Assembly: GCA_021018995.1 (NCBI GenBank)
Contig: CM037585.1
Coordinates: 67,458,646-67,522,645, forward strand
Direction of reading: 5' to 3'
DNA: 64,000 nt
DNA from: Chloranthus sessilifolius
Taxonomy: Eukaryota > Streptophyta > Magnoliopsida > Chloranthales > Chloranthaceae
In this document: positions 6,952 to 64,000 of the stretch, piece by piece
How positions within the stretch are numbered: the stretch's first letter is position 1
How the letters are laid out: each line of letters starts with the position of its first letter
The notes under the pieces: model-generated
What the model was told of the DNA's origin: nothing
What the model saw: only the letters and a program-made list of their open reading frames with translations
The model's database searches: none
Program-made: the position numbers and the translations under genes

Positions 6952-8442
6952 TTTGTCGGATTGGGGAAATATTCTGACAAATTTAGGAGTTCAATTACCC
7001 CTATGTTCCTTCCTTTAATATTTCTCGATAATGGTGCCACATAACTCTCCCGATCACTAATATAATCGGATGGGTCAAATTTAAACTCCTCATCTTCTAT
7101 CATTCCAACAGTGGGTCTGGGACCTGCTCCTCCGATAGGATGTAGGGGAAAGTGGCACTTGGTGAATATTAGCATGCTGAGAAGGTGTAGGGGGAATGAA
7201 TTTCCCGGCGTCAATCAAATCCTGAATGTCATGCTTCAAGGGGAAGCAACGATCAGTCGGGTGACCCGGTCCCTAATAAAAATTGCAGTGTGTATTTGGG
7301 TCATAGTTCTTTACAATTGGATGGGGAGGAGGTTACGGTTGACGAATAGTGACTAATCCTTTTTCCAGTAACAGAGGCAGAAGTACACTCAAAGATTGCC
7401 CCAGATGCATAAAAACTCGATTGTAGCGAGCTCTCTTATGCTCTGGAGTCATCTGCATTCCTTGCCCATTCCCCATTCTCTGCATCTGCTCAAGCCTAAC
7501 TGGTGCTAGTGGGGCTGCCTGAAATTGAAATAGGGTAGGGGTAGTATTGTTATTGGGCCTGATATTGGCAATATTCTAGACATCGGCTCTGGTTTTTTAA
7601 TCATTTCTTTGCTCTAAAAACCTCCTAACTCTATTGGGTTCACTCGGTGTGCTCTTGTTCAGAGGACCCTCCCTAATGGAATCCTCGCATCGATTAGCAT
7701 TTCTTACCAGATCAACAAAACTGGACTACTGTTGGTACACCAAGAAGTCCAAGATCACTGGCAGGGTATTCTTTGAGATCATCTCAATCTGTTCATCATC
7801 AAGTATTCTATTTCTAACCTGAGCTACCAGTGCTCTCCAACATCCCAAGTAGTCGCTGAAGGTCCCGTTCTGGTTCTGTTTTAAGCGAGCCAAGTCTGAC
7901 TTTTGTGGCTCAATGTTTATGTTGTAGATATATTATTCTTGACAAAGGTGTGTCAAGTCCCTGCACGTTTTTATCATGGATGGTTCTAAAGATGTGAACC
8001 ATCTCAAAGCCGGACCGGTCAGACTCTTTTGAAAGACTTTTATTAGTAGTCTTTCGTCCCTTCCATATTGACACATGTCCCCACAGTAGGACTTCATCTG
8101 CACAATAGGATTGCTAATGCCATTATATTTGTCGAAGGCTGGCATTTTAAATTTGGGGGGAAAGGGGACCTCAGCGAACAAGCACAAATCTGTGAAGTTC
8201 GTGGCATGGATTTCAGCACCACCCATTTTCATCAATTGTTTCTGTACTTTGTCCATCTGTTCTTTCAACTGTTTTGACTCTTTCGATGCAAGGGCCACTT
8301 TCTTGGCCATCGATTGGACTTCACTTTGGGTATCGGAGATGGCGGGGCCTAAACAAGGAAATAAGCACACTGATCGGGGGACTCGGGAGGTGAAGAAGGC
8401 TACAGATTCAGGCTGGTGAGCTATTAAACAGACTTGGCGCAA
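6950..8442 (-). pseudogene. Gag of element A
   Basis: Gag is the capsid protein. The core is at 7933..8442 (PKFKMPAFDKYNGISNPIVQ, MKSYCGDMCQY, GPALRWFTSLEP), which matches the plant Retrotrans_gag fold. A coiled region (KVALASKESKQLKEQMDKVQ) precedes it. After a stop at about 7930 the frame continues to a zinc knuckle variant near 7250..7310 (THCNFY...GHPTDRC, a CX2-x-X4HX4C form). The Pro-rich N-terminal half present in F (61520..62811) is missing, so A has a shortened gag or a deletion between 8442 and the leader. Confidence 0.8.
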
Positions 8443-8601
8443 CTAATACATGTGCCCAATTTGCAGGACACCTTTTTTACACTGACGCAACTATTAGTTG
8501 CGCCAAGGTAAAAATTTGGATTTTAAAGCTAGCGCAACTATTAGTTGCGCCTGTTATAAATTTCAGTTTTTTTGTACTGGCGCAACTAATACTTGCGCCA
8601 G
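8435..8601. repeat. Four palindromic repeats in element A leader
   Basis: Four copies of an inverted repeat lie at 8435..8456, 8483..8505, 8531..8552 and 8577..8601. Their arms read GGCGCAACTA and its reverse complement around a single central base. The first and fourth carry variant second arms (TACATGTGCC, TACTTGCGCC). Spacing is about 47-48 bp. The same motif occurs in the LTR of A and in element F. No gene explains it. Confidence 0.85.
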
Positions 8602-9111
8602 ACAAAAAATGGTGTTCCAGAATGTATAACAGTAGAGACAGCAGGCCAAAATGAGTCTCTTTTTTTTGGTTTTTGTGGAAGCTAGGCTTCCGGGAACTGA
8701 GCTATTTTTTGGTGATCGATTCTCTCCTCACTACTCCTAAAGGGTTTGAGTTCGGTATAACTCGCTAGCGCGCTCCCCAAGGGTTTTAAGCTTCGAAATG
8801 GGAACCCACCCGATATACCTTTGGCACAAGCACCTTCTCAGATACTAGGTGGGCTGGGACTTTTCTGGATCATCACCACTAAGGGTTACCACCATACTAA
8901 GACCCGGGTGGTTGTATGTGTGTCTAAACCCAACCCTTTGAAAATCTATCCCATAAAAAACAAATTGATTAAGCTCCCTAACTTGGTTCAATTTTATTTT
9001 TTTTCAAAGCTTTTCTTCTTTTTTTTGGAAGTTTTCTTTAGTTCAAAGACCAGGAGTGATGACCCCGTGACGCCACTACGGGCCGGCGTCCACTGTCGGA
9101 ATATGTTTGTA

Positions 9112-10194: not shown

Positions 10195-10475
10195 GAAAAG
10201 GGTGGGTTAGGAGGCTACTTAAGAGTTAAATGGGTTTAGCAATTAGGTAATCTCACATCTAAGGATTCCTAGGATTTTTGGAGCCTTGAGATGTGTGGAA
10301 GGATCCTCCAATGATGGATGATGGGGTGAGGCCTTAAGCCACTTAAGGGGTTGCAAATAGGTAGTGAATGAGTGGAACAGAACTAGTAAAACATACCCCA
10401 AAGGTCAAGGTGGTCAATAAGTCAAACCTCAATCACGATTTTCGGGGTAAAATCTCAGGGTTACTGTTCATATGC

Positions 10476-10730
10476 CTGGCGCAACTATTAGTTGCGCGCC
10501 ATAAAAATATACAGTAAAATAGTTTTAAATAGTGTCTGGAAGTTGGTTCGCGAGGGTGGGGTCCACAATTAATACTGGCACAACTATTAGTTGTGCTAGG
10601 ATTAAATCATGGGAGAAGTGGCCTGGCGCAACTAATAGTTGCGCCAGGAAAAATTATCACTGGCACAACTATTAGTTGTGCCAGGTCATTTATGGGGAGA
10701 AATAGCCTGGCGCAACTATTAGTTGCACCA
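10476..10730. repeat. Five palindromic repeats in the A LTR upstream of TATA
   Basis: Copies lie at 10476..10500, 10575..10599, 10622..10648, 10660..10684 and 10706..10730. The third is a perfect 27-nt palindrome with 13-nt arms (CCTGGCGCAACTA) around one base. The fourth has arms CTGGCACAACTA and TAGTTGTGCCAG: both arms changed, yet they still pair perfectly. The cluster lies about 290-540 bp upstream of the TATA box in the direction of transcription, a position expected for an enhancer. Confidence 0.9.
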
Positions 10731-11153
10731 AATCCCTTGGGGGGCCACTTGATTTTACTCTTATGCCCTCCGGGCTCAGTTCGCCGTATCTTTTGACGTA
10801 TACCTCAGATTGGGGCGATTCTTGGACCGTTGGAAAGCTGATGACCTCTTCCTTTTCAATAGTATGAGATTCAATCATGGTAGAAGGTCGTAGCTAGTTC
10901 CAGTGTACCCCTCCTCAACTATTTGCTTGATAAGGTTAAGTTTAGGTTCAGAACGGGTGCTAAGGGTCGGAATTGATTTCTTAAGGTTTGGGTCAGGTCC
11001 CTAATGGATCTAGGTTGATTCCTAAGGGTTTGGAAAGGTTCCTAAGTGTTCTATGGGGGGCCTAAAGGTTTCGTACATGTCTTCAAAAGCTCAAATTGCG
11101 CCTCTCTCGAAAGGTGTTTCGATCGGGGCTTGGACCAAATTTGGGTGTCTGTA

Positions 11154-11451: not shown

Positions 11452-11747
11452 TGTTGAGAACTGGAAAATACCATTTTTCACCCCTCAACCTGAGTCTTGA
11501 TAGACTTTTGAGAGAACTAAATAAGTGTTCTAAGTGCTTGTGTTTCAGCTAACAATAAAGACAGGCTTAACCATGAAAGCAGCTTAAAAGTTCCAAAAAG
11601 ATGATAATCCATGTCGATCCAAAGGAAGAAAGAGAAGGGACAACCTCACTAACTGTTAAAAGGTCTGAACTTAAGAGGCAAAGACCTGGTCTCAACCCAG
11701 AAAAGAAGTGTGGGGCAATTCGAACAGAAAAATGCACTACAGAGTGC

Positions 11748-11925
11748 TTTTCGAAAAGAACCTGAACTCTGCGAAAAGAACTAAAAACTCCAGGCTTAGT
11801 TTTCGAAGAGAACCTGAACTCTTCGAAGAGATGATTAACCTTTTCGAAAAGAAGAGAACTCCTTTCGAACAGAACCTGAATGTTGCGAAAAGAGCTTTAG
11901 AAGTTACAACACCTTGCGAAAAGTC
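11748..11925. repeat. TTCGAA-type motif cluster in the U3 of element B
   Basis: At least eight sites of the form (C/G)NTTCGAAAAG or GCGAAAAG occur: near 11748, 11770, 11801, 11819, 11839, 11863, 11884 and 11914. Between several of them the phrase GAACCTGAACTC repeats. Full copies are the 12-nt palindrome CTTTTCGAAAAG. The cluster lies about 380-550 bp upstream of the TATA box and recurs in the 3' LTR (24250..24380) and before the accessory ORF (19150..19485). Confidence 0.85.
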
Positions 11926-12299
11926 TCCTAAACTATGCGAAATGGTATTCTGGAGATTCCCAGCTTTTGCAAGGGTAATTCAGTAATCGTTTTCATGCGT
12001 CCCAATGCATTTAAAAACCTAGGGACATTTCAGAAGATTCTAAGCATGAAGCGAAGGCATATTCCACCCCATGTGAGCACCCAGAGATGAAATAACTTGG
12101 CGGGAACTTCTAGAAGCTCTAACAGATTTTCAAAATGCATAACAGAATTGATGCTTATGTCGCCTAATTGGCTGAACCAGATCAAGCAATTCTGATTGGC
12201 CATAACAGATCTGGATCCTTGTGCTCGACTATCATTGGTTGATACAGATCTGAGCACTTCTGATTGGTTGATACACATCTGAGCTGGACTTAGGGAAAA

Positions 12300-13300: not shown

Positions 13301-13318
13301 TGGCGCCGTTGCCGGGGA
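13301..13318 (+). promoter_or_regulatory. Primer binding site of B (tRNA-Asp)
   Basis: TGGCGCCGTTGCCGGGGA, six bases (AGTTTT) after the LTR. It is the complement of the 3' end of plant tRNA-Asp, the usual Athila primer. Confidence 0.95.
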
Positions 13319-13493
13319 ATTTGTTCTAAAATAGGTAGACCTAAGTTTTCATTTTTATTTTTATATCAGTACTAAACTATTCTATTGTTTATACCTGTGC
13401 ATTATTCATATCCAATTTTTGAAGGAGGGAAACTACTTAAAAAGGAATTCTGAAGGTTTGCTGTGAATAATCTAATTTTTTGTTCTGCGTTGT
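13319..13493 (+). other. Leader of element B
   Basis: An A/T-rich noncoding stretch between PBS and the gag start. I see no further signal in it. Confidence 0.6.
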
Positions 13494-15341: not shown

Positions 15342-15374
15342 TCTAGGATACAGTTATCCAAGAAGGTCTTTGTT

Positions 15375-15840: not shown

Positions 15841-16079
15841 TCAGCTCTGAGGAATGTTTTCATGTTGATCTATTGGATGAACTGGTAGAAGGGACTTTAC
15901 AACAGTTTCTGCAGTGTGAAGATTTCACCACAGATGCTAAAGATGCTTGGGGAAATTCTGAGGAAGAAACAATTTGTACCTCAAAGTCTGAGGAAGTAAA
16001 TGTTGTGCAAGGAACTCATAATCAATCAGCAAGTTTCTCTTCTTGGAAACCTGCTACTCTTCCCCTTCCACAAATAGCT

Positions 16080-19016: not shown

Positions 19017-19149
19017 TGGTAGACAACTGTACAATATGTTTTTATTTCATAGTTTTTGCTTAGTTTTCTTTTTCTCTGTTTTTATTCATGTTTGTTCTCT
19101 TTTCGCATGGTTTAAATATGTGAAAAGTTAAGTCGCAATGTAAAAATTG

Positions 19150-19485
19150 TCTTTTCGCAAAGTTCAATTTACTTTTCGAAAAGAATCTGGATTTGTAACG
19201 AACTGCTCGAAAGCAAGGATTTGCTTTTCGAAAAGATGTTTCTGAAGCCATTTTCTTTTTGAAAAGATGTTTCTGAAGCCATTTTCTTTTCGAAAAGAAG
19301 TTTCTGAAGCCATTTTCTTTTCGAAAAGATGTTTCTGAAGTTATTAACTTTTCGAATGGTACTGATGCCATTCTCAGTTGTAAAAAGGTCTGTTTTGGAA
19401 CTTTTCGAAAACTTAAAAAGGACTTTGCGAAATTAACTTTGAGCATATTTAAACCCTTTCGAAGTAAGGGTTTCATTTTCGAAAG
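19150..19485. repeat. TTCGAA-type motif cluster before the accessory ORF of B
   Basis: About twelve copies of CTTTTCGAAAAG or one-mismatch forms occur between the end of pol and the accessory ORF (for example 19150, 19174, 19224, 19285, 19316, 19399 and 19474). Several form a tandem array of about 31 bp with TTTCTGAAGCCATTTTC between 19230 and 19340. A TATTTAAA at 19446 may be a TATA box, about 310 bp before the ORF start. The motif is the same as in the LTR U3. Confidence 0.85.
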
Positions 19486-19760
19486 CTTTCTGAGAATGTC
19501 CTGTTCCACAGAAACCCTATTTCTTTCTTTCCTTGCGTGATTCTAGAATTTAGCCACACTTTTCTTCACCTTTGTTCGATCATTTGAGCTTTCAGAGAAG
19601 GATTTTAGCTTCTGGTCTGGGGGATTTCAGCAAGCAAGCAACACGCTCAATCAAAAACCCTAGATCTCGGTATTTTTCTGCGCATTCCCTCTGTTTATCA
19701 TTTGAAAATTTTGATTTTGCGTCAGCATTTGTTGTGGGCGTTTTCATACACAAATTGAGA

Positions 19761-22179
19761 ATGGGAAAAGCTGAAAAATCATTGGCTGCCATGTTCCCAA
19801 AATCCTCTGCTAAGAAAGTTAACAAACCTACCCCAAAAGGAAAAAACAAAACTTCAGCCAAAAGAAAACTATCAATGGATAAAGCGGATAGGATTGAGAA
19901 AGGGAAGAAAGTGAGACATGAGGAACCCATCCCTGCAGCTGCTAGTCTTGAGCCTGAGCTTCCTCCTCTGCCTATGCATTTGGTACTGCCAAATCCATTC
20001 ATTGAAGCTCAGAAGCTAATTCCTGAGCTTATTGTGCACGAAACATTTTTCGTCAACAAACCGGATTGTCTGCTATCTTTAAGATACATGAGAGATGCCT
20101 CACTAAGCAATATCCTTACCCCTCTGCCAGAGAAAATTTATCCGTGAATGGTGATGGTATGGTACCAAAACCTGGTAAAAGTCACTGAAAAAGATGTTGA
20201 TGTCCCTACCCTGGTTATCTTTATTGATGATTGCGATCTAATTGTCACATATGAAGACATAGGAAATGCTTTGGGGATACCCTTCCAATTTGATCCTTCT
20301 GGTCCATTGGCTGCACCAGAAGCAGCCACCTTTAGAGAAATGGCTGCACATTTAACCCAAGGGATCGTAGGCACTGGACAGTCCATAATGAGGAGAGACC
20401 TAGCACCTCAATTTTTATTGATGGATTCAATTTTGAGGGGAAGTTTTTATGTCACTGGGCACAGGCAAGAAAGGAGAACACCAATTTTAGAGGCTCTCAT
20501 TCATTTTTCTAAGGGGCAGTTTTTCAATGCCCCTATGTTAATTTTTGAAGCCATGGCTGATATTAGTGCCAAGTTGAAAAAGGAGCAGAAATTAGCAGAA
20601 CTCCCATTTGGTAGACTGATCACAGCCCTCCTAAGAGCTAAGTTTGACATTGATGACCAGGAGCCATTTGAAGTCATAGCTCCTCACAATTTTGGGAAAA
20701 AGGCTCGGACTACAAGCTAAGCCATGCTGAAAAGACTGAGAGAGGAAGGTGAGCTCAGACAAGAATTGCTAATCGAACTCGCAGACTGCACTGTTAATGA
20801 ACTCGCCTGCAGCCTCCCTTTAGAACTGCTCGCCAGATCCTGTGGTGACCAGCTCTTCAGCTGCACCAATACTTGAGGAAGTTGGCCTTTTACCCTCCTC
20901 ACCTAGTCCAGCTCCTGCAACTTCACCTATCCCAGCTGTCCCATCTCCCATACCCACCATTATCCCAATTGCAGATTCCCCCTCTACACCAACCACTCCA
21001 ACCATACTCACACCACCAATTTCTCCCACCAATGCCCAAGTTTTGGCTACAGATTTTATTGCCCAATCTCCTTGTACTCCTCTACTCCAAAGCCTCTCAA
21101 GTTCACCTGCTCATTCAGCCCACACACCTGAAGTATCCCATACACCTGAACCTGAGCCTTTCACTACAGAGGCTTATTCCTCATTAATGGGATCTATTTT
21201 TGAAAACGTGGGGCTTGAACCTGTCCCTATACCTGACCCTCATCATTTCACTCACTTACCTACTTCTCCCTTTACAGCCATTTCACCCATTGCACCTCCA
21301 CCATCCACTTCAGTTTTACCAGTCCCTGCTATGCATACCTCCCCCACACCTGAATCTATTAACCAAATACTTGCCTTCCTCCAATCCATCCAAGCCCAAC
21401 TATCAACACGAGAAAACCGATCATGACCAATGACCATCTCTAAACCTTAGCCTCCACATCCCACACAACTACCATTACCACTGTACCTACTGTTGATGCC
21501 CATGCTACCCAAACTAAACCAGAGGTAGTCTTGGTTGATCTGCCCACCCCCACCACTACTGCCCATGCTATCCAAACTGAACCTGAAGTACCTCTGGTTG
21601 AGTCCCCTTCAACACTCCTCACTTTCTCTGATCAAGCCACTCAGACCGACCCTGAAGTCATCCTTCTGGACACTTCTTCTCCCACTCCCACAGCTGGGAT
21701 ACCTTTGGTCCCCTACCATTCCATTCCCCTTCCCAGATTTGCCACCCTCAGAAGAGCCATGGAAGAAAATCCATATATCTGAAGAGATGTTCTCAAGGGG
21801 TTAGTTGATTTACAAGCCTACATTAGAACCCCTTATGAAAACTAGATTTGGAAATTGGAGTTATTCATGAAATTTGAGAGAGAAAATGAAGGACCTGCTG
21901 GGTCAAACTTTTCAGATGGTTCGGAGTGAGCAGCACAAGGTGACCATGTTGCAAGCACAGCTTGACCAGGAAAAATTGAAGACCACTAGACTTGGAAAGT
22001 ACATTGGCCTCACCAGAAAGATCAAATCAAAGGAATACACTGAGCTACAAAACACAATCCAAGAGAAGGCTAAATCAAGTTCAGACTCCAATACTGATTC
22101 TAGTTCTGACTCTGACAGTGGCTCCAGTTCTGATCCCATTGAACCAACCTATGATACAGATTTTGACCCCAGTTATTAA
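19761..22179 (+). pseudogene. Athila accessory ORF of B (historically called env-like / ATHILA ORF)
   Basis: Start at 19761 (ATG GGA AAA). Residues 1-55 are strongly basic (KKVNKPTPKGKNKTSAKRKL; KGKKVRHEE), like a nuclear localisation signal. Then comes a conserved globular part (20148..20720) with a counterpart in D (EDIGNALGIPFQFDPSGP versus EVMGIPAIFDPNCG; IMRRDLAPQFLLMD versus IRRRDLDPKILFID). A Pro/Ser/Thr-rich stretch follows (20842..21430), then three TQT-type motifs (21490..21660), a coiled coil (21874..22070) and an acidic Ser/Asp tail. I see no signal peptide or membrane helix. Stops at 20145 and 20718 and frameshifts near 20840 and 21430 make it a pseudogene. Its role is unknown. 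Confidence 0.75.
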
Positions 22180-23953: not shown

Positions 23954-25812
23954 TGTATTGAGAACTGGAAAATACCATTTTTCACCCCTCAACTTGAGTC
24001 TTGATAGACCTTTGAGAGAACTAAAAAAGTATTCTAAGTGCTTGTGTTTCAGCTAACAATAAAGACAGGCTTAACCATGAAAGCAGCTTAAAAGTGCCAA
24101 AAAGATGATAATCCATGTCGATCCAAAGGAAGAAAGAGAAGGGACAACCTGACTAACTGTTAAAAGATCTGAACTGAAGAGGCAAAGACCTGGTCTCAAC
24201 CCATAAAAGAAGTGTGGGGCAATTCGAAAGGAAAAATGCACTAAGAGTGCTTTTCGAAAAGAACCTGAACTGTTCGAAAAGAACCTGAACTCTGCGAAAA
24301 GAACTAAAAACTCCAGGCTTAGTTTTCGAAGAGAACCTGAACTCTTCGAAGAGATGATTGACCTTTTCGAAAAGAAGAGAACTCCTTCTAAGAACACGAA
24401 CGCTATGAAAAGAGCTTGAGTTACAAAGACTCATGCAAAAGTCCCCTAAACTATGCGAAATGGTATTCTAGAGATTCCCAGCTTTTGCAAGGGTAATTCA
24501 GTAATGTTTTTCACGCATCCCAATGCATTTAAAAATATAGGGACATTCCAGAAGATTCTAAGCATGAAGCGAAGGCATATTCCACCCCATGTGAGCACCC
24601 AAAGATGAAATAACTTGGCGGAAACTTCTAGAAGCTCTAACAGATTTTCAAAATGCATAACAGAATTGATGCTTATGTCGCCTGATTGGCTGAACCAGAT
24701 CAAGCAATTCTGATTGGCCAGTACAGATCTGGATCCTTGTACTCGACTACCATTGGTTGATATAGATCTGAGCACTTCTGATTGGTAGATACACATCTGA
24801 GCTGGACTTAGGGAAAACTATAAATAGACGAACCATTTGCCCAATTTGGGCATCCAGATTTTGAGTTTCATTCCTATTCTCCCATTTCCAAACCAGATAG
24901 TTTGTCTGAAATCCCTGTAATAGCCTCACTTTTACTTGCAATTGAGAGCTGTGAGATACTTCTGTAATTCAAAAGGGAGTTGTATTCAAGACTACAAATC
25001 TGAGAGCTGTTTAAGCTGTACTCTGTAATTGTAATGGTGAATTTGAAAAGGTTGCTGTAAACCGTACATTCTCAATTGGACTCATGTTAAGGGTTCCCTT
25101 TGATCTCCTTATTGCATTAGACTCCTTTAGATTTACTGTTTTTCATGCAATTTCCCTTGATTCATTAATCCTGCGAGAATTAGTGTTTGTAACCTAATCT
25201 CTCATGGCATTTGTAGTGATGTTTCTTGTTCTAAATTAAGGATTTAGAGTAAAGACTATTGGATGGTCTGTGGCCATTAAAGTGGACAGACCATAGCCAT
25301 AAGCCTAAATCTAATCCTTGAGTTAGATTTATTTCTCTTACATCTGTGCTTGTAGCCAGATGAAGATTGGATCATCTCTCATTTGATCTGCAGTCATTCT
25401 CATTGTATTTCAAGGACCAAATCAAAGTTAGATATTATTTCTCCATTTTTAGAAGTTTACATCAAAATTCCCCCATCTCAGATCTGGATCATTTAGTTTA
25501 ACTTTTACTTTTATCATTTAGTTAATGTGACAAATTCAACCTCCCATCTTATGTGCTTTCTAGATAGGATAAGAGGCCAGATCTGGTAGCTCAGATCTAG
25601 AGGTTTATCTTGCATTTTAAACAAATTCTCTGTGGACGATCTTTTACTCACTTACATTTAAAACTTGCTACAATTGGCCCTGATCTTGCAGGCTAATTCA
25701 CTTCTCTCTGTGCTGATATTTCTTTACTCTTTTTAATGTTCTAGATAAATTAGCAGTTGCAAATCTGTTTTCAAAACACAAATAAATCATGCACACTTAG
25801 AATTTAACAACA
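23954..25812 (+). repeat. 3' LTR of element B
   Basis: Length is 1,859 bp; see the 5' LTR. It carries the same motif cluster (24250..24380), with an extra GTTCGAAAAGAACCTGAACT unit near 24270, and the TATA box at 24828..24838. It ends CAACA at 25812, followed by TGGTC. Confidence 0.95.
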
Positions 25813-31221: not shown

Positions 31222-31227
31222 AAAACT

Positions 31228-32820: not shown

Positions 32821-32971
32821 CCTGGCACATGTATTAGATGTGCCAGGAAAAAATACAGTCCCTGGAAGTTCAAAGCCTGCGGGGGGACCCACCTGTGATT
32901 GGCGCAAGTATTAGATGTGCCAAGCTATTTCTGGGCAAAAATGGCTTGGCACATGTAATACATGCGCCAAG
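32821..32971. repeat. Three palindromic repeats in the F LTR
   Basis: Copies lie at 32821..32847, 32899..32924 and 32945..32971. The third has 13-nt arms CTTGGCACATGTA and TACATGCGCCAAG around one base, with one mismatch. The arms use CATGTA where A uses CAACTA. Position is 280-440 bp upstream of the TATA box, as in A. Confidence 0.85.
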
Positions 32972-34232: not shown

Positions 34233-34376
34233 TGTGCGTAACACATACGCCAAGCTAAAAATAAAAACAGCGGGCAGGAGTAGCCTGGCCAGAAAAATAG
34301 CCTGATGCTTGTATTAGTTGTGCCAGGCAAGTAGGGGGGCCAAATTGGGTTGGCGCGTGTATTAGTTGCACCAAGC
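34233..34376. repeat. Palindromic repeats upstream of antisense gene 1
   Basis: Three copies of the F/A motif lie at about 34233..34255 (partly decayed), 34301..34327 and 34349..34375. The last has arms TTGGCGCGTGTA and TAGTTGCACCAA. A TTTTTAAA at 34391 follows, then a C/T-rich 5'-UTR-like stretch (34430..34460). The position is that of a promoter for the plus-strand gene. Confidence 0.8.
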
Positions 34377-34399
34377 AAGACTTGGGGAGGTTTTTAAAC

Positions 34400-38127: not shown

Positions 38128-38339
38128 CAGTGGTGTGGCAGCGCATTAGGGTTAGGAAACCCTAATTTTAACGATGCCACATGGCTGAATACTGTTCCTT
38201 GGATGCCTCAGGGTGCGTGCACGGAGATTTGAGGGTGGGAGTGCGTGCCCTAATCACTAGAAATCCCCAGAAAGTCCTCTACTGAAGCAGTGGAAGGTTA
38301 AAGTTTAGAGCATCACTAGGTAGCCATTATTTCCCAGGC

Positions 38340-38770
38340 TCGTCGCGTGGTAGCTCTGTTCTTCGTGTGGTTGAGTTTAACTCTGAAGCTTCAGCTATCG
38401 CGAGATTGGTGCGCTCTCGCTGGATTGAGCTTCACTAGGTTGGGTTGGAATATCGCAGGAACTGCGCGAGCATCACTCCAATGGATCTTCGCGAGGATCC
38501 TCGCGAGGCTTTAATAGTTTCTTAGCTGCGTGAGAGTCCATTTCTTGATAGATCTTCACGAGGATCCTCGCGATAGCTTTGAGGCTTTTCTGAACTGCGC
38601 GACAGGTTCTCTTGGCATTTGCTTCCATGACTCTGCGCGATAGGCTGAGGCGGATTCAAGCTAGTCACTCACTCAAGTTGTTGTGAAGTCTTGGGAATTC
38701 ACGAGGACTGCGCAAAGCATATTTTTCTGAATCCTCTAAAGCTTTGGGAAGTTGCGCGAGGCTCTTCTCA
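38340..38770. repeat. CGCGAG-type motif cluster in D LTR upstream of TATA
   Basis: About ten CpG-rich sites of the kind TCGCGAG, GCGCGAG or GCGCGAC occur: near 38397, 38465, 38489, 38556, 38598 and 38755, among others. The one at 38489..38506, TCGCGAGGATCCTCGCGA, is a perfect 18-nt palindrome. In the other LTR the same site has become TCGTGAGGATCCTCGTGA. The cluster is 215-650 bp upstream of the TATA box. The same motifs recur before the accessory ORF at 44769..44980. Confidence 0.82.
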
Positions 38771-40856: not shown

Positions 40857-43800
40857 CAGTCCCAACCCATCTTCTTGGCATGCTCTCGAAGGAGAGCCTC
40901 TTCCTCTTTTTTCTTTCGTTCCCTCTCTTCCTTTCTTTGGGCTGCAGTTTTGGGCATGGGTGGTTTTGGTGCCCTCACCCTCATTTTGGGGGCCTTTGGT
41001 ACATGAGGGATCACTGGGGATTTGTCTGTGGTTTGCTCAGGTGATTTGATAGGACTTTTTCCTTTGGGACTCTTCCCTTGCTGAGTCTGAGGGGGAATAA
41101 GAGGAGATTTTACTTATTCAGGCGCAGGAGGGACAACCGGGCTCTTACCTTTATCTTGCGGGTTCAGTAGTGGTGCCCCCTCAGACTGGGCAGATTGTTC
41201 TTTTCTAATTTTTATAGAGGCAGCTGTGTGAGTAGTCCTCTTGGTTGTAACTTTCCTTCTCTAAGGATAAGTTTGCTCAGTAGGGTTTGATGAAGGAGGA
41301 GCAACAGGACTTTTAACACTTGGATCCACAGGTGGTGCAGAGTCAGACTCTGAATTAGAGGGAAAAAGAGCAGTGGGATCCAATCTAAGAGCAGCAGTAG
41401 CCTGTCTGCGTTCATCTTTGGAAAGTAACTGACCATGGGGGTCATCCTGAGCAGAAACTCTAGTGACCTTTGGGGGTGGAGATGGAGGTGCAGGCTTTTT
41501 CCCTTTTTGGGCAGTAGTGGCTCTTTTGGAGGGAGAAGGTTTCTTAGAAGCAGCCCTTTTTCTCTTGGGTGCAGGAGATTTAGCAGGGGGAGGCACTGGA
41601 GCAGGAGGTGGTGGAGGTACTTGAGTAGGAGGTGGAGGAGGTACTTGAGTAGGAGGTGTAGGAGGAGGAGATGTAGATGTAGGAGCAGGGGGAATGGAAG
41701 AAGATGGCCCGAGGTGTGTGGAAGGTGGGGTCTTAGGGGGTACTGTAGTAAGAGGGGTGGCTTGAATTGGTTGGCCTAACAGAGATACAATCCTTTTTTG
41801 CAAAATTTCAATCTACTTTTCAGCATAGAGGAGTTTGGCATCAGAAAGCCTCTTAGTGAGCGTGTGGATCTCCTGAGCGTTATTAAGTCTCTTTTCATAC
41901 ATCCGGGCTCTCTTTTGCTCCAGTTTGGCATTGGCTTTCTCCATCTCCGTATTCAGTTTGTAGTAAGTTGCCGCAGACTTTTTCTCATTGAGGATCTCCA
42001 AAATTTTCTCCCACCCCCGTGAAATACCTACCAGCTTCTCTCTATGAGCAAGCTTCAGGTCACTCAACTTTTGCAGTAAACGGTACTCAATGGATTGTCT
42101 AAGTTAGGCCATTCCCCTGAGAACATCCCTCTTGATGTAGACATTGTCCCTCATGGCATGGAGGAGGGTGAAGTAAGGAGGGGTGTAATAGGAATGTCTT
42201 GGTAGGATAGGTAGAAAGGGAGTGGAAGAAATAGAAGGTGATGGGTCCTGGAGGGGTGGAGTAATGGTGGTAGAGGGCAAAAAGTTTGGGGTCTGTTTGA
42301 GTCGAGTTGTCAGAGAATCTAGGAGGAGATAATATGAGAGGTGGAATGGAGGGCATGGGTGGAAAGGAAAATGAAGTGGATGCAGTGGAAGTGGGTGGAG
42401 CTAAGGAAGGGTAATAGGGGATAGTGAATGGGATGAAAGGAACTGGAGGGGCCAAAAGTGTGTGTGGGTGGATGGAAAATGTGGATGGGAAAGGAATGGG
42501 GTCTGTTTGGGTGGAAGTGTCCGTAAATTGTGGTGGAGGCAATAGGAGGGGGGGACGGATAGGTAGGGTGGGGAAGGAGTGGTGGGGTATGGTGTCTTAG
42601 AGGGTGAGGGTTATAGTTAAGTCAATGGGGGAAAGTTCTGGTTGCACTGTGGAGTCAGAGGTGGAAGGGGACTGGATTTGTGGGGTAGGAGGTGGTTGTG
42701 CAGAGATGGGTGGTTTTGTCAATGTTTGAAGGGTGGATTTGATGTTGGTGATGTCAGTCTGCATTTGGTCTTGGGTATGTGTTGTGGTTGATAGTTGGGT
42801 CTGAATGTCATGTATTAGGGAAAGGATATGGGTAAGTGTGTCTGAGTTTGGTTGGGGTGGAGTATGAGAAGAAGAGGGAACAGGTTGGAAAGCGTAAGTA
42901 GGGGCATGGTGAAAGGTTGTAGGAGGAGGAGATGGAGGGTCTGGTGAGTGATGTGGAGAAGGAAGAGGGGAATCTGGAAGACGGATATCATGGGTTGGCA
43001 TGGTGTCAAGCAATGTAGTCATGAAGGCCTGATATCCGAAAGTAGTGGTGAGGTTATAGTCAAGGTCTGTGAGTGGAGGTGAAGTAGGGATGACTGGGAT
43101 GGTGGCTGGGTCAATGTGTATGGTTGCAATGGTTGTACAAAGAGTAGGGTGTATCTGTGAGGGAATGGTAGAGGTTGTGGTCTTCCTTTTTAGGTAGGAT
43201 ATTAGGGGAGGGCTGTCAGGGTTCTGTGCCGGTGATGGAGGAATTGGGGCTGGGTACTGAGGTAAGGTAGGTGAAGGTAAAGGGCTGTCATGGGGGTCAA
43301 TGTCCTCAATAGTACTAATCACATGGAAACGTGAGGGTATGGATAAGGGAGACAAAAGAGAAAAAGGGAAAGATGGAATAGGCAAAGGAACTGATGGAGG
43401 GACAGGGAGGGCTGGAGTAGGAGGTGTGGTGGATGGAGGGACTGCTGCAGTAGTAGAGATGACAGGAGCTTCCACCACCTTCTTCAGAGCAGGTGCTCTA
43501 ACCATCTTTTTGGGAGCAGGGGTGGCCTTTGCAATAGCAGCTCCTGCTCCTTGCTCTGTAGCAACCTGAGCCTCAACCTTCTTCTTCTTCTTTTGGGGAT
43601 CCATTAGACTCCTGCTGATCCCCCATTGCCTCTTTACAAAAGTTGTAGGGTGAGGTCATCAGTTAATTCTCCCACTGGTATCTTGTACCCCCCCCTCAAA
43701 AGTAATTTGGTAATGAGTCTTGCATAGGGGAGAGTGTAGGGCTTCTTTTTCTGTCCTAGCTTCACCATCACATCCTTCATTGCTTGAAAAATTAACCTTG

Positions 43801-44488
43801 CAGCATGAAAACCGTGGCTCAGAGAAAAGGAATAAACAGCATCTGTAATAGGGGTCCTCCTCTCCTGCTGATGGTCGGCACATTAAATGTTCTTCCGCAG
43901 AACTTGATCAATGAACAGAATTTTAGGGTCCAGGTCTCTTCTCCTGATGGAATCCCCTGTGGCCTTCAATCCTCTGGTAAGGGCCTGTGCAATGGTATTA
44001 ATGGGGGCACTCACAGGGGGGCCATATCCACAGTTGGGGTCAAAGATAGCAGGGATGCCCATCACTTCAGCAATCAACTTAGGGCTGAGTAACATTTCAA
44101 AATTGTCAACTAACACAAGGAGGCCTGGCTACCCACGTTGGTCTGGTCTAGCCCTAATGTGCTGGTAAAAGAGTTGCACTAGTCTAGGGTAGGCTAGTGC
44201 AGGGATAGCTTGCAGCAGGGGGGTCAAACCAGCCTTGCACATGAACTCAATGGCAGGGGCTGATAGAGGTTCCGTTTCAAAGAAAGATAGGTCAAAAACA
44301 GCTTCAGGCTCCAAGGGAATGGGAGTCAGGAGCTCAGAGGGTGTAGAGTAATCAGGTGTTAGCTCAGCCACTTCCTGAACCACTTCTTTCCCTTTTTGCG
44401 ACGCCTTTGAGGACTTGGCCTTCTTGGGAGTGGGCTCCACGGGAGCCTTATCCCTTGCTCTTTTCACAGGTGCGCCCTTAGGGGCCAT
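40857..44488 (-). pseudogene. Athila accessory ORF of D
   Basis: Start at 44488 (ATG GCC CCT AAG). The first 40 residues include PVKRARDK and PKKAKSSKASQKGK, spaced like a bipartite nuclear localisation signal. A globular part follows in 43883..44260 (LLSPKLIAEVMGIPAIFDPN; DSIRRRDLDPKILFIDQVL), similar to B. A very long Pro-rich stretch (41261..43604) holds basic islands (MDPQKKKKKVEAQ; KRKRAASKKPSPSKR) and two STQTDP motifs (42099..42542). A coiled-coil part (41813..42067) reads in another frame. The end is charged (KEERERKKKEEE). Stops and frameshifts break it into about seven pieces. I see no membrane segment. It is about 50 % longer than B's. Confidence 0.72.
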
Positions 44489-44768
44489 TGAACTTCTCCT
44501 CTGTGAATGTGTAGTTTGAAAATTGAAAAGAAAAGGTTGAGAGCTGAGTCTTACCCTAAAACTTAGGGTTCTGTTCAATCTGATGCACGAAAAATCGTGA
44601 GAGCTCCTATCAGAGGGAAACTGGTGATGGAGGCTGTAGGAGCAAATCCCCTGAATTTGAAAATGAATGGAGGACTGTAGAAAGGATGCCGGAGGAGAGA
44701 GATTAATGGGAGTCAACGCTAGGGTTTCGCTTGCTGGAGAAGAAAGAGAAAATAGAAAAGGAAAGCAG

Positions 44769-44980
44769 CGCGAGGTTGGATTATATATATCGCGAGGCTT
44801 GGCGTGCTTTAAAATTATTTGCTCGCTGGATAGAAATGAGTGGGTCGCTAGATTGGACTTTCATTTGGATTGCGCGAGAGAGTCTACACAATTGTATTAA
44901 ATCTCGCGACAGCTTAGCAGGCTAACATCTTATGAACTGCGCGAGAAGAAACCACGCCAAATCTTCATAACCTCACGACG
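44769..44980 (-). promoter_or_regulatory. Putative internal promoter of D with CGCGAG motifs
   Basis: CGCGAG/CGCGAC sites occur at 44769, 44791, 44873, 44914 and 44940, with decayed CACGAC at 44976. Within the cluster the minus strand reads TATATATAATCC (44779..44790), a TATA box about 290 bp before the accessory ATG. The arrangement copies that in the LTR. It lies directly after the place where pol is missing. Confidence 0.65.
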
Positions 44981-45372
44981 GCTTAAACAGAGTAAAAAAA
45001 TCACACACCCACCAATCAGCCTTTGACCTTTGTTTTGTGGGTGGATTCTCTCATATGCTCTCGTCCAGGGACACCCTTAGTCATTCTAAACAGGACTCTC
45101 CATGCTTTCCCAATAATTAATCATGCAATTACTCAAAAAGCATTTAATCAAAACCTCATATCCAAAAAAAAACATTCTCACTATCAAAACAGTATAATCA
45201 TCATTCATTCACTCAAAATCATCAATTCAAAGGGGACAAGAAGCAAAGTAGGCAGAAGAATTTTTAGGTAATATACACTCAGACTCTGACAAGATCACTA
45301 GAAATTCCTATAAATATAAAAAAGACGAACCATACTAAAATACATAACATACACAATGCACAGTTCTGTGAA

Positions 45373-47268: not shown

Positions 47269-47274
47269 AAAACT

Positions 47275-49576
47275 TGTTGCGAATTCCAGTGTGCTTACTT
47301 TATTTGTTGGTGATAAAAGTAATTTAAAATCAAAGTAAAACAGGGGATGGAATCGGCTGGCAAGAAATCCTAGACGCAAGAATCTGAGGTCCATTGTAGC
47401 AAGTTTTGATAAGTAAGAGTTTGTCCCATAGGGAAAGATGATCTACGGCTCCAAGGGAGCCGTCTCTAGTAGTTCCTCCAGATCTGACTACAAATCTGGC
47501 AGTCCTAAAAGGAGGGGAGTTTAGGGTCACTTATTCTAAATATCCTAAGGTAGCCTAATGAATTAACTATAGAAAGGGTTGAGAAGATGGATGGAGTGTG
47601 GGAAAATAAATATAAAAGGGTGAGAAGTATGCTATTGGGTCTGGATCAGAGGAGTTTTGTAACTCAGATTCAGATCTGATGTTATAGAAATCCTGTCCAA
47701 TGGCTACATTATCACCACTGAGGAGAAAGAATCCAACCCATCTCTGTGTCATGATCTAATCCCTTAAGGCTATAACCTGTCCACTCAAATGGTCACAGAC
47801 TATTCCATAGGGGAACCACAGTCCAGAGATGGGTCAAAACAAGTTAATCATTGTAGGCACTACTTCATCCAGGCTACATGCTCAAGAATCCATAGGGAAC
47901 CTCAACCTCTAAAGCTTCATGTGTGGGGCTAGGGCTGTATAGGACCATGTTAGCCCAGACACATAGAACCAGTAAGGGATTGAGAACAACCTTCGATCTA
48001 GCTGTCCATTGCTTGAATGGGACTACAATGGTCCAGTCACAAGCCTACAATCTCCATAACCAAATCGATCTAACATCTAATGGCGGGTCTTTACAAATAT
48101 AGGGGAGTCTGCCTCTGTACAATCTCCCACAAGGCTACAAGCACATGTGCAGAGAATAAGAATCCATCTTGGATTCTACGGATTGGATTCACCCTAAGGC
48201 TATAGCTTGTCCACTTGAATGGTCACAGACTATCCCAGAGGCTATGCTCCTCATAGAGTCCAAAACAGAATAGTAATATTGCTGCCACCACCATGGTCAC
48301 ATGGCTACCAGCTCAGGCTCCCATGGGGATTTCAGATCTAGTGGGTCCTGTGGTGGGGCTAAGGCTATATCGGACCATGATAGCCCAGACACACAAGTCA
48401 CTTGGATCTGAATGGATCCTTAAAATCAGTCCTCCATTGCTTCGAATCATTGCCAAAGCAATGGCGGATCACAATGCAGCAGCCTTGCACAGAGCAACTC
48501 TCATTCGCACACATCCAATAAAAGTACATATCCTATTACAAAACATCCATTAAGCCAGTTTAAAAATACATACAAAGGCATAGCCAGCAAGTGCTAGACT
48601 ATGGAGAGAAAGAAAAAGAAAAAGGAAAACTACTTACAACTACAGAAGAACAGAAAAGAAAATGATCTCAGATCCTGTATCAGTGATAAAGTCTGAACTC
48701 CAAAACCTAAACCAAGTTTGGGTTTATATAACAGTGGTGTGGCGGCGCATTAGGGTTAGGAAACCCTAATTTTAACGATGCCACATGGCTGAATACTGTT
48801 CCTTGGATGCCTTGGGGCACGTGCATAGAGATTTGAGGGTGGGAGTGCGTGCCTTAATAATTGGAAATCCCTAAAAAGTCCTCTACTGAAGCAGTAGAAG
48901 GTTAAAGTTCAGGACTTTGCTAGGTAGCCATCGCTTCCCAGGCTCATCGCGTGGTAACTCTGTTCTTCGTGTGGTTGAGTTTAACTCTGAAGCTTCAGCT
49001 GTCGTGAGGTTGGTGCGCTCTCGCTGGATTGAGCTTCGCGAGGTTGGGCTGGAATAGCACAGGAACTGCGCGAGCATCACTCCAATGGATCTTCGTGAGG
49101 ATCCTCGTGAGGCTTTAATAGTTTTTGAGCTGCGCGAGAGTCCATTTCTTGATAGATCTTCACGAGGATCCTTGCAACAACTTTGAGGCTTTTCTGAACT
49201 ACGCGACCGGTTCTCTTGACATTTGCATCCATGACTCTGCTTGACAGCCTACGCAAGGCGAGATTGGGCTAGTCATCACTCAAGCTGAGAAGTTGTTGTG
49301 AAGTCTTGGGAATTCACGAGGACTGCGTGAAGCATATTTTTTTGAATCCTCTGAAGCTTTGGGAAGCTACGCGAGGCTCTTCTCAGGTCTGGATTTAGTT
49401 CTCATTCTTCTGAGGGACTTCTGGAGTCAAAACAGGCTCCTTAGCAGGATTTATGGCCTTATTGCACTGCTGTTTATTACCTACAAAAATAGCTTAATAA
49501 ACATTTATTAAAGAGCTAAGGGTCTAATCACAGGTTAAGTTAAGGGGTGAAAAGTGGTACTTTTCAGGTCTTAACA
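47275..49576 (-). repeat. 5' LTR of element D
   Basis: Length is 2,302 bp. See the 3' LTR. Many CpG in the motif cluster (48950..49380) have become TpG or CpA, for example at 49093..49110. The outer end TGTTAAGACC is intact. Confidence 0.93.
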
Positions 49577-51026: not shown

Positions 51027-51103
51027 GACCTAGTGCATGTATTACATGCGCCAAGCCAAATCTGGGAAAATTTGCTCTGGCGCATGTATTACATGCGTTA
51101 GGC
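51027..51103. repeat. Two palindromic repeats upstream of antisense gene 2
   Basis: At 51027..51056 and 51075..51103. Both have CATGTATTACATG centres; the second reads GGCGCATGTA T TACATGCG. They lie 80-155 bp before the DUF7745-like ORF, which is the plus-strand promoter position. Confidence 0.8.
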
Positions 51104-51182
51104 CAAATTTGGGAATAGTGGGGCCGTTTTATGCCCGAGACTGCACTTTTTCCTTCTCTCTTGACTTTGGCTTGCTATTTTT

Positions 51183-52800
51183 TTGCTCCCATTTTTTTCC
51201 TCTCCTTGCCCCAAGGTGGGTCCATCGTCCTACATTGAATTTGTATCCTTGAAACATCTTTGTACGTCAAGGGACCTACTTTCCAACCCCGCCTCTCATG
51301 GGGGGCCCGGGACCACGATACTTCCCTCTTTGGGCATGGGGCCCAGTTTTCTATGGAAGTGGCATGAGAGCATGAACGAGAGTGAGCTTGTAGGTTTGGA
51401 TCGGCTTGGCTTGGCCCGTCTTGCGTCCTTCCTTGAAGTTCCTCCGCTTTGGGATTTCATTTATGCTGCGGCTTCCATTTGGGGAGTTATCGCCCATGTT
51501 TTCCGTTTTGGGAGTCGTGAGTTGACTCCTACTCTCGAGGAGCTCTCCAATCTATCATATTTAAAGTTGAATAGAGACCGCGCGAGAGTGTTGCTAAAAC
51601 CGGGCTACGCCAAAGCCACTCAGATCACCTTGGGCTTGAAGAAAAATGATTATAAGAAAAGTCTCATTTGGGGGCCCACCAGGTGTTCGGTGAAATTCCT
51701 AAGAGAACTTTTTGGAGAGGAAAGCCTGCGAAAGTTGTCGATAAAAAATCCTCATAACCTGAATGCCTTTGCCCTTTGCCTTATCTTTGAGGTTCTTTTC
51801 TATACTTGGGGAGAGAGCTCCTCACTTGAACTTTGTGATGTCTTGGCAGAAATAGAGGGAGGTCATTCTGTGATGCATATGGTGCTGGCAGAGCTTTATC
51901 GGCGCCTTGATGCCTTCACTCTGGGCAAGGTGGAGGGCCTCCGAGGATATCCCATCTTGCTCCAACTTTGGCTTGAGGAGCATTTTGCTATCTTGGGACC
52001 CGTGCCTTACTTTTACATTGCTCATGGAGAGGTGGCCCGTTGCTTTATGGGTTGATGTCATATGCTTCCACTAGGAGATATGCAAGGTTTGAAGCTTTGA
52101 CTGGCTGAAGCCGAGTTGGTGTGGAGACTTCCTTGGTTAGATCGGACCTTCCCAGTGGTTTTCTCTAGAGATCATGAGGGCATCACCCTCCTCGGTTTCA
52201 CTGGCAACACTCACTACTTCCCATTTCGGGTGTTACGCCAGTTCGATTGCCCTCAGAGGTGCCTTGTGTGATGAAGCTGCCCCTGTGTGACTTGATTTTC
52301 TCTCGGGGGTCCTCTGAGGATGTGGATAGGATAGCAGCTCTCTGATAGAAGTGTCAGTCGACGCTCATGTGTGATCTAGAGCAGGGGGATTCGGTTTGGT
52401 CCTCCCCGGAGTACGAGGCTTGGCTACTATCCCAGAAGCTTGCTGTTGGTCACTTGGACCAGACAGAGAGCACTGATATGACGGGGCCTTGGTCAAGGAA
52501 GGAGTCAATGCTTCAGAGGCGTATTGAGCTATTGAGGGATGAGAAGCGCATCCTGCATGAAAATTTAGAGAAACAGGTGGTTGGAGCAAAGGTTGCAGAG
52601 GCCAGGGCTGATGCAGCTGAGTGTGAGGTCTTTCGTCTGGAAGGATCCGTGAGTGACGCTCTTGGTTCCACTGACGCTTCCTGAAAGCGGTATAGGAGTC
52701 TCCATGGTCGCTGAATGACGAAGCGAGATGTACGGGAGGATGCTTTACTCTCAGAGATCCGTGCTTTGAAGCACAAGTTGGGTCGTTGGTTCCCTCATGC
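51183..52800 (+). pseudogene. Antisense gene 2 of F: DUF7745-like protein (pseudogene)
   Basis: A 290-residue ORF (51183..52055) on the strand opposite to F. It has LARLASFLEVPPLWDFIYAA, HVFRFGSRELTPTLEEL, NAFALCLIFEVLFYTW and GYPILLQLWLEEHF. I match these, from memory, to DUF7745, a plant family whose members mostly lack a known function. After a stop the sequence continues (TLLGFTGNTHYFPFRVLRQF near 52190..52240). A coiled-coil-like part (RRIELLRDEKRILHENLEKQ, 52367..52684) follows in another frame. The start codon is uncertain; a later ATG at about 51336 is also possible. The function is unknown. Confidence 0.72.
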
Positions 52801-62300: not shown

Positions 62301-62811
62301 GCATGACCTGGGAAAATGGAGGGATATGGGGTGGATCAGAGAAACTAGGTGTGGCATGGGTAAATGTGGGTGGATTGTATATATGTTGGGAGGATGAAGA
62401 ATGGGGTATGTTGGTGAAGGTGGAAAATTGGGTCAGGTTTTGGGTGGATGTGGATGGAATGTGAGACGGATCTGGGATGGACATGGTGGGGGGAATAGAT
62501 CTTGTTTGTGGGAATGAAAGGGAGTGGGGTGTCGGATTTTGGGGGTTTTGAGTGGTGGTGGATGGGAAAATGGGCATACCGAAAGATTCGGTGACGGAAA
62601 ATGGGGGTTGAGTGAGGGGGATGGATGTGAAAACCTCTTCCGTATGGGAATGAGTTGTGGAATGTGGTGGGGATGAATCGGGATCGGCGTATGCCGGATC
62701 CACTACCCATGACATGGCTTGGTTACGGGTGAGGTACGGGTGCCTCGGATGGGGCCCGTAAAGTTTTCTCCTTCTTCCCCTATGGGATGACGGAGAACAA
62801 GGCGGTGTCAT
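59340..62811 (-). pseudogene. Gag of element F
   Basis: The probable start is at 62811 (MTPPCSPSSHRGRRRK). The N-terminal 400 residues are very rich in Pro, Ser, Thr and His. They end in tandem short units such as SRPNGPDP (61860..62080), which on the plus strand are about 30-bp repeats. A frameshift near 61960 and stops break this part. The core is at 60977..61276 (LKFKISVFDKYNGMSNPIAH, SSALRWFTSLEP). The zinc knuckle THCNFHQGSGHPTDRC (CX2HX4HX4C, common in Tat gag) is in 60272..60502. A Pro-rich linker (59618..60022) leads to the protease. Confidence 0.8.
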
Positions 62812-64000
62812 TGTGCCGGCACCACAACAATTTGGTATTTTTGGTTTATTTAATTTTTTTGAAATTTTGTATTTGGATTTTTATGATGAAGGATTTCAGG
62901 GCCTTTGAATTTCCGTTTTGGGTGGTATTTGTACCCTAAATAAATCCCACTACAAGACCCCAACACGCTTCGAAAGAATCAAAGGGGAGCCCTTTTGATC
63001 TATTGAAGGCACGGGAACCAACACAAACAACCCAATCCCTCAGAGCGAGTCAATAAGAGGTTACCCTCTTTTGATCAGTGGAGGTGTATTGGGTGTTGGA
63101 TAATACAGGACCTAATCAGAGGTGCTAAACCACTAAGCGGGGGAGCTCCGGGATGTGAAAAGGCCTCCGATTTCCAGTTATTCTGCTCAATTGGATCAAT
63201 TACTACTTGGCACGAGTATAATATGAGCCAGACCAGCTTTGGTCCAAATTGTGCTTGGCGTATCTATTACATGTGCCAGAGAAAATCTGGGGTTTCTAGA
63301 CTTGGCTCATGTATTAGTTGCACCAGGCAAAATCTGGGGTTTCCATGCTTGGCGCGTGTATTAGTTGCGCTAGGCAAACAGTGGGGTCAGATACCCCCCA
63401 ATAGTAGGCCAACAAGCCCGAATTCAGTCTTTTTTACCTTGGTTTTCTAGAAGCGATGCTTTCGGGAACTGATCTCTTAATTGAAATGGGCTTTCCTCAC
63501 CGAATCTAGGGATACAAGGCCGATTCAAGACTACTAACACTCTCCCCAAGGGTTTTAAGCTTCGTAACGTGATAGGTTCCCCAACCTATATACCTCCAGC
63601 GCAAGCGCTTTCTCAGTTATTGGAAGGGGTGGTACTTTTTCGGATCATCACCACTAGGGGCTGCCGCCGTACAAAGAATCGGGTGTTTGTATCTTTGCCT
63701 AGAATTCCCAACCCTTGAAAAATCTACCCCCATTAAAAATTCAATTAGAGTCCCCTCTTGGTTCAATTTTAATTTCAGTTTTTAGAGGAATTTTTCTTTT
63801 AAGTCCAAAAGCGGGTGGTGATTGTCCCGTGCCACCTCTACAAGCCGACGTCCACTGATAAAATATGTTTGCGGAAATGTAAAAGCTCACGTAAGCCCAC
63901 CAAACACCTAAGGCATGTAAAAGTGCAAGTAAACCCGCCAATCGGCTAAGGCATGTAAATGATGAAAAAATAAGGGAATTGTAAGGACGATGCTCAAGTA
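62812..64000 (-). other. Leader of element F
   Basis: Noncoding; it aligns with A's leader 8640..9300 (for example TCCCCAAGGGTTTTAAGCTTCG at 63542 and 8774). From about 63870 to the edge are the leader repeats (GTAAACCCGCCAATCGGCTA) that lie next to the PBS in A. PBS and 5' LTR should therefore follow within a few hundred bases. Confidence 0.75.
63206..63374. repeat. Four palindromic repeats in the F leader
   Basis: Copies lie at 63206..63231, 63254..63279, 63301..63327 and 63348..63374, about 47 bp apart. The last reads TTGGCGCGTGTA T TAGTTGCGCTA: one arm of the F type, the other of the A type. Position matches the cluster at 8435..8601 in A. Confidence 0.82.

Follow-up and report, generated by a model that had tools for sequence, protein, structure and literature searches.

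Family-specific palindromic clusters in the LTRs and before the accessory genes of Tat- and Athila-type retrotransposons of Chloranthus sessilifolius

Palindromic boxes that recur in the long terminal repeat (LTR) and again before an accessory gene are known from the Sireviruses, and comparable clusters are found in three families of Tat- and Athila-type elements in the stretch of Chloranthus sessilifolius DNA considered here, which is 64,000 nt long (GenBank assembly GCA_021018995.1, contig CM037585.1, positions 67,458,646 to 67,522,645 of the forward strand) and is referred to as a whole as the window. Sireviruses are Ty1/copia elements; for 13 of them, Bousios et al. (2010, PMC2829016) report repeated palindromic CpG boxes in the LTR, which their figure 4 places upstream of TATA. 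Nine of these 13 RM Sireviruses have an env-like gene, and according to the same report all nine also have boxes in the linker, with 77 of 79 linker boxes lying before env; the four without env are also without linker boxes. The authors read the linker boxes as support for an internal promoter, and the boxes are compared with host sites in that paper. The layout is therefore already known in Ty1/copia LTR retrotransposons, and is not new for LTR retrotransposons as a whole, in which an earlier sequence-only reading of this DNA had not met it before.

VANC21 and VANC6 are described as related proteins with different short motifs, located in tandem repeats of the non-coding DNA of their own VANDAL elements (Hosaka et al. 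2017, PMC5735166; a further VANC source is PMC10398659), and a comparison with VANC has already been drawn for LTR elements (PMC12844716). In foamy viruses, one element-encoded factor, Tas/Bel1, is reported to have binding sites in an internal promoter as well as in the LTR (PMC517496). Regulatory roles have been proposed for the antisense open reading frames (ORFs) of Retand and Grande (PMC11963269, PMC7264820), and gene23 of Grande is reported to have its own promoter, with no LTR-shared motif described in the accessible part of that report (PMC7264820). For an Athila of sunflower, PMC11728184 reports an aORF that is Transposase_32-like and contains nuclear localisation signals. PMD is given as the commonest extra domain of Gypsy elements (PMC9289625); the occurrence of PMD genes in Gypsy elements, a suggested anti-silencing role for PMD genes captured by Mutator-like elements (MULEs), and a link between MAIN/MAIL1 and a promoter motif are reported in PMC5418596 and PMC7156037. 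In the open-licence literature, no report was found of this layout in Ty3/gypsy Athila or Tat elements, with motifs that are family-specific and mutually unrelated and with antisense genes.

The window contains parts of five LTR elements, labelled A, B, C, D and F. A and F are related elements of Ty3/gypsy type on the minus strand; the name Tat is the label of the sequence-only reading, and the pol domains seen are of Ty3/gypsy type. Two antisense genes, each with a PMD match, lie between pol and the 3' LTR of F. B lies on the plus strand and is of Athila type; it has gag, reverse transcriptase (RT, 15342-17399) preceding integrase (17763-18623), accessory frames, and LTRs that are 95% identical. 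C is a fragment only. D, which sits inside F, is of Athila type on the minus strand, with 93% identical LTRs, gag and accessory frames, and has no match to the RT or integrase of B. These are hallmarks of LTR elements and not of MULEs: LTRs, gag, RT and integrase in B, LTRs and gag in D, and pol in A and F.

The Tat dyad spans 23 bp, with a half-site consensus of TGGCRCAWSTA and one central A or T. A position weight matrix (PWM) was seeded with the palindrome of A, trained by expectation maximisation solely on the A LTR (10440-10760) and scanned over the 64 kb; its 21 best matches (score at least 12.3) fall in six clusters, and the next matches score 7.0. Two of these matches half overlap a neighbouring one, which leaves 19 sites at scores of at least 12.5. 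Training on the A leader alone returned, as the 20 best, the same 19 and a degenerate twentieth site at 63208 in the F leader that fits the register, with a lowest score of 13.1 and the next at 5.9. The six clusters are as follows.

10477..10730, minus strand: A LTR, five 23-bp dyads, the nearest 284 bp upstream of TATA (10193)
8435..8600, minus strand: A leader, four dyads at 47-48 bp spacing, directly before gag
32823..32969, minus strand: F 3' LTR, three dyads, the nearest 283 bp upstream of TATA (32540)
63208..63372, minus strand: F leader, four dyads (63208 degenerate), spacings 48, 47 and 47 bp
34303..34373, plus strand: before F antisense gene 1, two dyads, with a TATA-like TTTAAA at 34393
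51031..51100, plus strand: before F antisense gene 2, two dyads

Neighbouring dyads are 47 or 48 bp apart in 11 of 14 cases (37, 77 and 99 bp in the remainder), TATA is almost equally far from the first dyad in the two elements (284 bp in A, 283 bp in F), and the A and F leaders hold four sites in the same register, though BLAST leaves this stretch unaligned. A count based on an IUPAC consensus (19 genuine sites that match at 20 positions or more, against a best shuffled match of 19/23 in 40 shuffles) was set aside as circular, because the consensus came from the same sites, and for this reason the hold-out PWM is counted as evidence. Outside the window, the Tat dyad was found in two viral contigs, whose frames were read by eye as phage, and in no prokaryote contig. 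Several F spacers (63256-63366, 51031-51100 and 32900-32969) carry a AAATCTGGG-like stretch between the dyads, which may be a second component of the 47-bp unit.

The cluster of Athila B consists of a different palindrome, distributed between the two LTRs and the region ahead of the accessory gene.

11745..11946, plus strand: B 5' LTR U3 region, CTTTTCGAAAAG-type sites, at least 355 bp upstream of TATA (12301)
24248..24464, plus strand: B 3' LTR, copy of the U3 cluster
19097..19414, plus strand: B pre-accessory cluster, nine sites at a PWM score of at least 12, with a TATA-like TTTAAA at 19448
19554..20720, plus strand: B accessory gene, stop-to-stop frames 19554-20147 and 20148-20720 (in-frame stop between them), ATG at 19761

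All eight TTCGAA sequences in the 10.7-kb internal region of B (13295-23957) lie at 19175-19478, directly before the accessory gene. At a score of 12, a matrix built from U3 only found eight sites in the 5' LTR, seven in the 3' LTR, nine in the pre-accessory cluster and two elsewhere, and a motif-free measure of 8-mer sharing gave 12.7 between U3 and the pre-accessory region, whereas no segment outside these two exceeded 4.9. The spacings between sites (for example 20, 21, 31, 32, 51, 52 and 53 bp) are near multiples of 10.4 bp, and with distinct spacings and a fixed site rule helical phasing is seen at all seven thresholds (R 0.91-0.94, p 1e-4 to 3e-4); the regularity is due in part to tandem repetition, in units of 31 bp ahead of the accessory gene and of 20-21 bp in U3. 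No viral contig held the B motif.

Athila D presents the same layout with a third motif.

38335..38770, minus strand: D 3' LTR U3, TCGCGA/CGCGAG cluster with nine CGCG, upstream of TATA (38126)
48940..49385, minus strand: D 5' LTR, copy of the cluster with six CGCG remaining
44764..44982, minus strand: D pre-accessory cluster, including TATATATAA at 44789
43634..44860, minus strand: D accessory gene, a homologue of that of B, broken into frames 44129-44860, 43883-44128 and 43634-43882, ATG at 44488

In the 8.3-kb internal region of D (38963-47274), five of five CGCG lie at 44769-44940, around TATATATAA and before the accessory gene, and TCGCG on one strand accompanies 20/20 CGCG in the three clusters of D against 13/20 elsewhere (Fisher p 0.008). 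The nine best matches of the palindromic U3 matrix outside the D LTRs score at least 10.8: five are pre-accessory, two lie in the F LTR, one at 51576 and one at 19421. From the pre-accessory side, 8-mer sharing ranks its own U3 first (5.2, next 4.5). From the U3 side, the 3' LTR shares most with the F LTR (6.0) and the A LTR (5.3), ahead of its own pre-accessory region (4.6), and the 5' LTR with the F LTR (6.0) and 22591-22950 (4.9), ahead of its own pre-accessory region (3.9). D thus has the weakest motif of the three families and is unconvincing if taken alone, because the motif is short and the 3' U3 shares more 8-mers with the F and A LTRs. As an element, D (internal region 38963-47274) appears to be non-autonomous, retaining the accessory gene and its motif cluster.

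The clusters coincide, exactly or to within some tens of bases, with the places where the sequence-only reading had put them, and its central claim, that each family has its own dyad cluster both in U3 upstream of TATA and at a putative accessory promoter, is borne out by the hold-out PWM and by the internal TTCGAA and CGCG counts. Its further claim that all motifs contain CpG is too broad for Tat, where 26 of 40 half-sites have the G at position 5 that gives CpG. That the clusters are real and common to LTR and internal sites is close to certain. The observations comprise the arrays and their placement, dyad symmetry, the phasing in B, sites that are better conserved than spacers, and family specificity within the window. 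Core-promoter-like sequences adjoin the clusters, namely TATATATAA in D (44789) and TTTAAA in B (19448) and at F gene 1 (34393). Judged from such TATA-like sequences, transcription would be predicted to begin near 44760 (minus strand), 19480 and 34420 (both plus strand) and, with less certainty, 51150 (plus strand).

The dyads are probably protein-bound regulatory sites that serve the LTR and the internal accessory promoters. In the proposed mechanism, each family would carry dyad arrays in the LTR, approximately 220-640 bp upstream of TATA, and at an internal promoter driving the accessory gene or genes, and one family-specific factor would bind both arrays, so that genomic RNA and accessory protein would be switched on together. 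The element itself is the likeliest source of this factor, at about even odds. By analogy with the systems described above, it is plausible that the accessory protein binds the dyads: in Athila the factor would be the nuclear-type accessory protein and in Tat F one of the antisense PMD-type proteins, acting as an autoregulatory activator or anti-silencer like foamy-virus Tas or VANC, a sign that we infer. The complete proposal, in which a family-specific, self-encoded factor binds the operators of both promoters, stands at about an even chance.

The accessory proteins of B and D are homologous (37% identity over 78 aa and 49% over 65 aa; by tblastn, 38% over 162 residues, E 9e-34), and both have a lysine/arginine-rich N-terminus that by eye resembles a nuclear signal; despite this homology, the motifs of B and D are unrelated. 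The B piece is Transposase_32-like at E 7e-5, under the Pfam cut-off, and had no relatives in a protein search or a scan of viral contigs. The candidates in Tat F are the two antisense genes.

35645..36145, plus strand: PMD exon of F antisense gene 1 (PF10536, E 8e-12)
51165..52055, plus strand: F antisense gene 2, a 296-residue open frame, first in-frame ATG at 51336

Gene 2 is PMD-like (PF10536, E 4e-7, under the Pfam cut-off), and the pieces of the two genes have no BLASTP similarity (E 0.32). TRP28 (PF04195) is absent from the two F frames scanned with Pfam, which gave PMD, the other gene pieces being unscanned. A protein search with gene 2 returned one weak relative, P0005 (26% over 74%, PF24924/DUF7745), and a viral-contig scan returned none. 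Read by eye, gene 1 resumes past the D insertion to about 50.6 kb and looks intron-bearing over 34380-50600 (plus strand), interrupted by that insertion; introns antisense to the element would escape splicing of the genomic RNA. Downstream of gene 2, a frame at 52300-52800 (plus strand) has by eye a long coiled-coil-like stretch, which recalls the SMC-like antisense ORFs reported for Retand elements (PMC11963269).

Whether the sites are under constraint was assessed over 11 Tat units of 47-48 bp by comparing site with spacer identity, with shuffled spacers as baseline. In the 55 pairs of units, sites are 0.74 and spacers 0.41 identical, against 0.29 for shuffled spacers. These figures bear on the possibility that the clusters are a functionless by-product of tandem duplication and of copying of an LTR block into the internal region, which is favoured by tandem arrays of 31 bp in B, 47 bp in the F leader and 84 bp in the A LTR, and by the excess of spacer identity over the shuffled value. 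Between the A leader and the A LTR, however, sites are 0.80 and spacers 0.31 identical, close to random, and the A clusters are therefore no recent copies of one another; the A and F leaders give 0.70 for sites against 0.33 for spacers, the 12-mers of B U3 and its pre-accessory cluster 0.83 against 0.33 for their 4+4 flanks, and self-BLAST (E 1e-5) returned no U3/pre-accessory alignment in B or D. The by-product explanation, already hard to hold for A and B, is very unlikely overall. Recent block copying, which the sequence-only reading had itself named as a danger to its proposal, accordingly does not account for the A LTR and leader or for B, but it retains some purchase in F, whose spacers keep similarity.

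The same clusters might act at the level of RNA, as hairpins through which the genomic RNA is packaged or dimerises, or as sources of small RNAs. The leader position in A and F would suit such a role, and small RNAs are reported to be attracted to the palindromic Sirevirus clusters (Bousios 2016 as cited in PMC10760457). Across the 20 Tat dyads, however, the two halves of a site differ at 47 positions, compared with 45.4 when partners are shuffled within the family and 51.6 when they are shuffled over all; Tat halves thus vary independently within a family, without the compensatory variation of a stem, which fits homodimer DNA sites and not base-paired RNA stems. The palindromes of B and D are short and loopless, and further sites are located upstream of TATA or ahead of antisense genes, which makes function as RNA a most improbable account of the clusters.

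Several observations weigh against operators bound by a self-encoded factor. The sample is one copy per family, with two LTRs each for B and D. Tandem duplications make up part of the clusters and can create regular spacing: the arrays cover B U3, the B pre-accessory cluster, the A LTR and the F leader, D U3 has a 12-bp array of 2.2 copies, and none is listed over the D or F pre-accessory clusters. Spacer identity reaches 0.45-0.62 within Tat clusters and 0.49 between the F pre-gene clusters and the F LTR and leader (sites 0.72), so that some shared ancestry of the unit remains, and the spacers of the A and F leaders match in register at 7/25, 12/24 and 11/24 positions. The leader clusters of A and F precede gag and no accessory gene, and are an extra location that a simple model of LTR plus accessory gene leaves unexplained. 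A simple TATA pattern has no match before F gene 2 or in the F leader, and the D motif is also present in the LTR of F. For F gene 2, a PDB sequence search gave 0 matches, and the one structure model, with a mean pLDDT of 34, was too poor to reveal a DNA-binding fold. The co-variation between LTR and internal clusters anticipated by the sequence-only reading runs in the predicted direction (sites of different clusters are 0.816 identical within the same element and 0.767 between elements) and the true A/F split ranks first among the 15 groupings of the six clusters, but this is weak, at best p ~0.07, and is confined to this window.

Nor did a comparison of LTR pairs reveal protection of CpG within the clusters, where decay is as fast as outside: CpGs kept in both LTRs number 19/32 inside and 11/21 outside the clusters in D, and 6/11 and 9/16 in B. 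The elements are CpG-poor, with observed/expected ratios of 0.18 in B and 0.26 in D, and the pre-accessory clusters hold 12 of 53 internal CpGs in B and 16 of 75 in D; this density suggests that the CpGs were retained while the lineages were active.

Two further accounts keep the shared operators. A host transcription factor or chromatin reader, different for each family, could occupy the dyads; stress-responsive host factors drive many plant LTRs, and the accessory proteins are no more than candidate binders. Three families would then each need a separate host factor recruited at both promoters, and host consensus sites (E2F, CAMTA, HSF, SOG1, G-box and W-box, in the forms tried) gave at most one match for any motif and cluster. 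A host factor is a possibility to be taken seriously, if on the doubtful side. Alternatively, the accessory protein could repress the LTR and its own promoter, as autorepression or copy-number control. The host PMD proteins MAIN and MAIL1 are reported to act in silencing, though they are needed for the expression of some genes (PMC5418596, PMC7156037); the LTR clusters lie far upstream of TATA, in an enhancer-like position, and negative control is on balance unlikely.

Other features of the window touch these elements without forming part of the clusters. An Rfam match to snoR71 (RF00097, 62.3 bits, E 2e-10) lies at 13963-14068 on the minus strand, antisense inside the gag of Athila B, and means either that this family of small nucleolar RNAs (snoRNAs) overlaps with Athila gag or that a snoRNA has been captured. 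Between its leader cluster and gag, F has about 1.8 kb absent from A, with a 308-residue proline/serine-rich open frame (61954-62880, minus strand) that has no Pfam match at E 0.1. A generic scan for palindromic 8-mers failed to single out all clusters unaided; its top two segments, 31141-31500 and 49681-50040 (TAGATCTA and ATCATGAT), lie outside the finding, and the latter overlaps a GAT repeat.

If operators bound by a self-encoded factor are the correct explanation, the "env-like" and antisense accessory genes would be united with VANC anti-silencing and the Sirevirus boxes of 2010. The signature shared by LTR and accessory promoter makes the function of the Athila env-like and Tat/Retand antisense genes, described as unexplained in PMC7264820 and PMC11963269, directly testable. 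More tentatively, and with somewhat less than even confidence, Tat, Athila and Sireviruses may each encode a fast-evolving, family-specific DNA-binding regulator that recognises dyad arrays in the LTR of its element and at the internal promoter of its own gene, a self-activation circuit of the Tas or VANC kind that would account for accessory genes long known as "env-like" or antisense.

As in the RM Sireviruses, dyads cluster both upstream of the TATA of the LTR and in front of an accessory gene. The cores differ, CGG-CCG in 12 of 13 Sireviruses compared with GGCGCA, TTCGAA and TCGCG here, and CGGNNNCCG and CGGTNNACCG, which represent the CGG-CCG core at those spacings only, occur 0 times in the window. 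The elements described here are of Ty3/gypsy type, with RT before integrase in B as opposed to integrase before RT in Ty1/copia, and in place of the Sirevirus env-like gene Tat F has two antisense PMD-type genes; the phasing in B is a further difference. With VANC21 and VANC6, Athila B and D share homologous proteins paired with unrelated motifs, and the motifs lie within tandem repeats of non-coding DNA as in VANDAL. In contrast to VANDAL motifs as written, those found here are palindromic, and they belong to LTR elements and not to MULE DNA transposons; of the VANC motifs, YAGTATTAY has 0 matches in the window and AGTTGTMC has 2, with 0 in the clusters. VANC binding and demethylation were shown experimentally, whereas the accessory proteins here are known from sequence alone. 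The accessory gene of foamy viruses lies downstream of pol; those are animal retroviruses with an unrelated protein and unrelated sites, for which binding is proven. In Retand, as in F, antisense ORFs lie between pol and the 3' LTR; they carry a TRP28 domain where F has PMD, and the available text on Retand describes no LTR-shared cis motif of the kind that links the F genes to their LTR.

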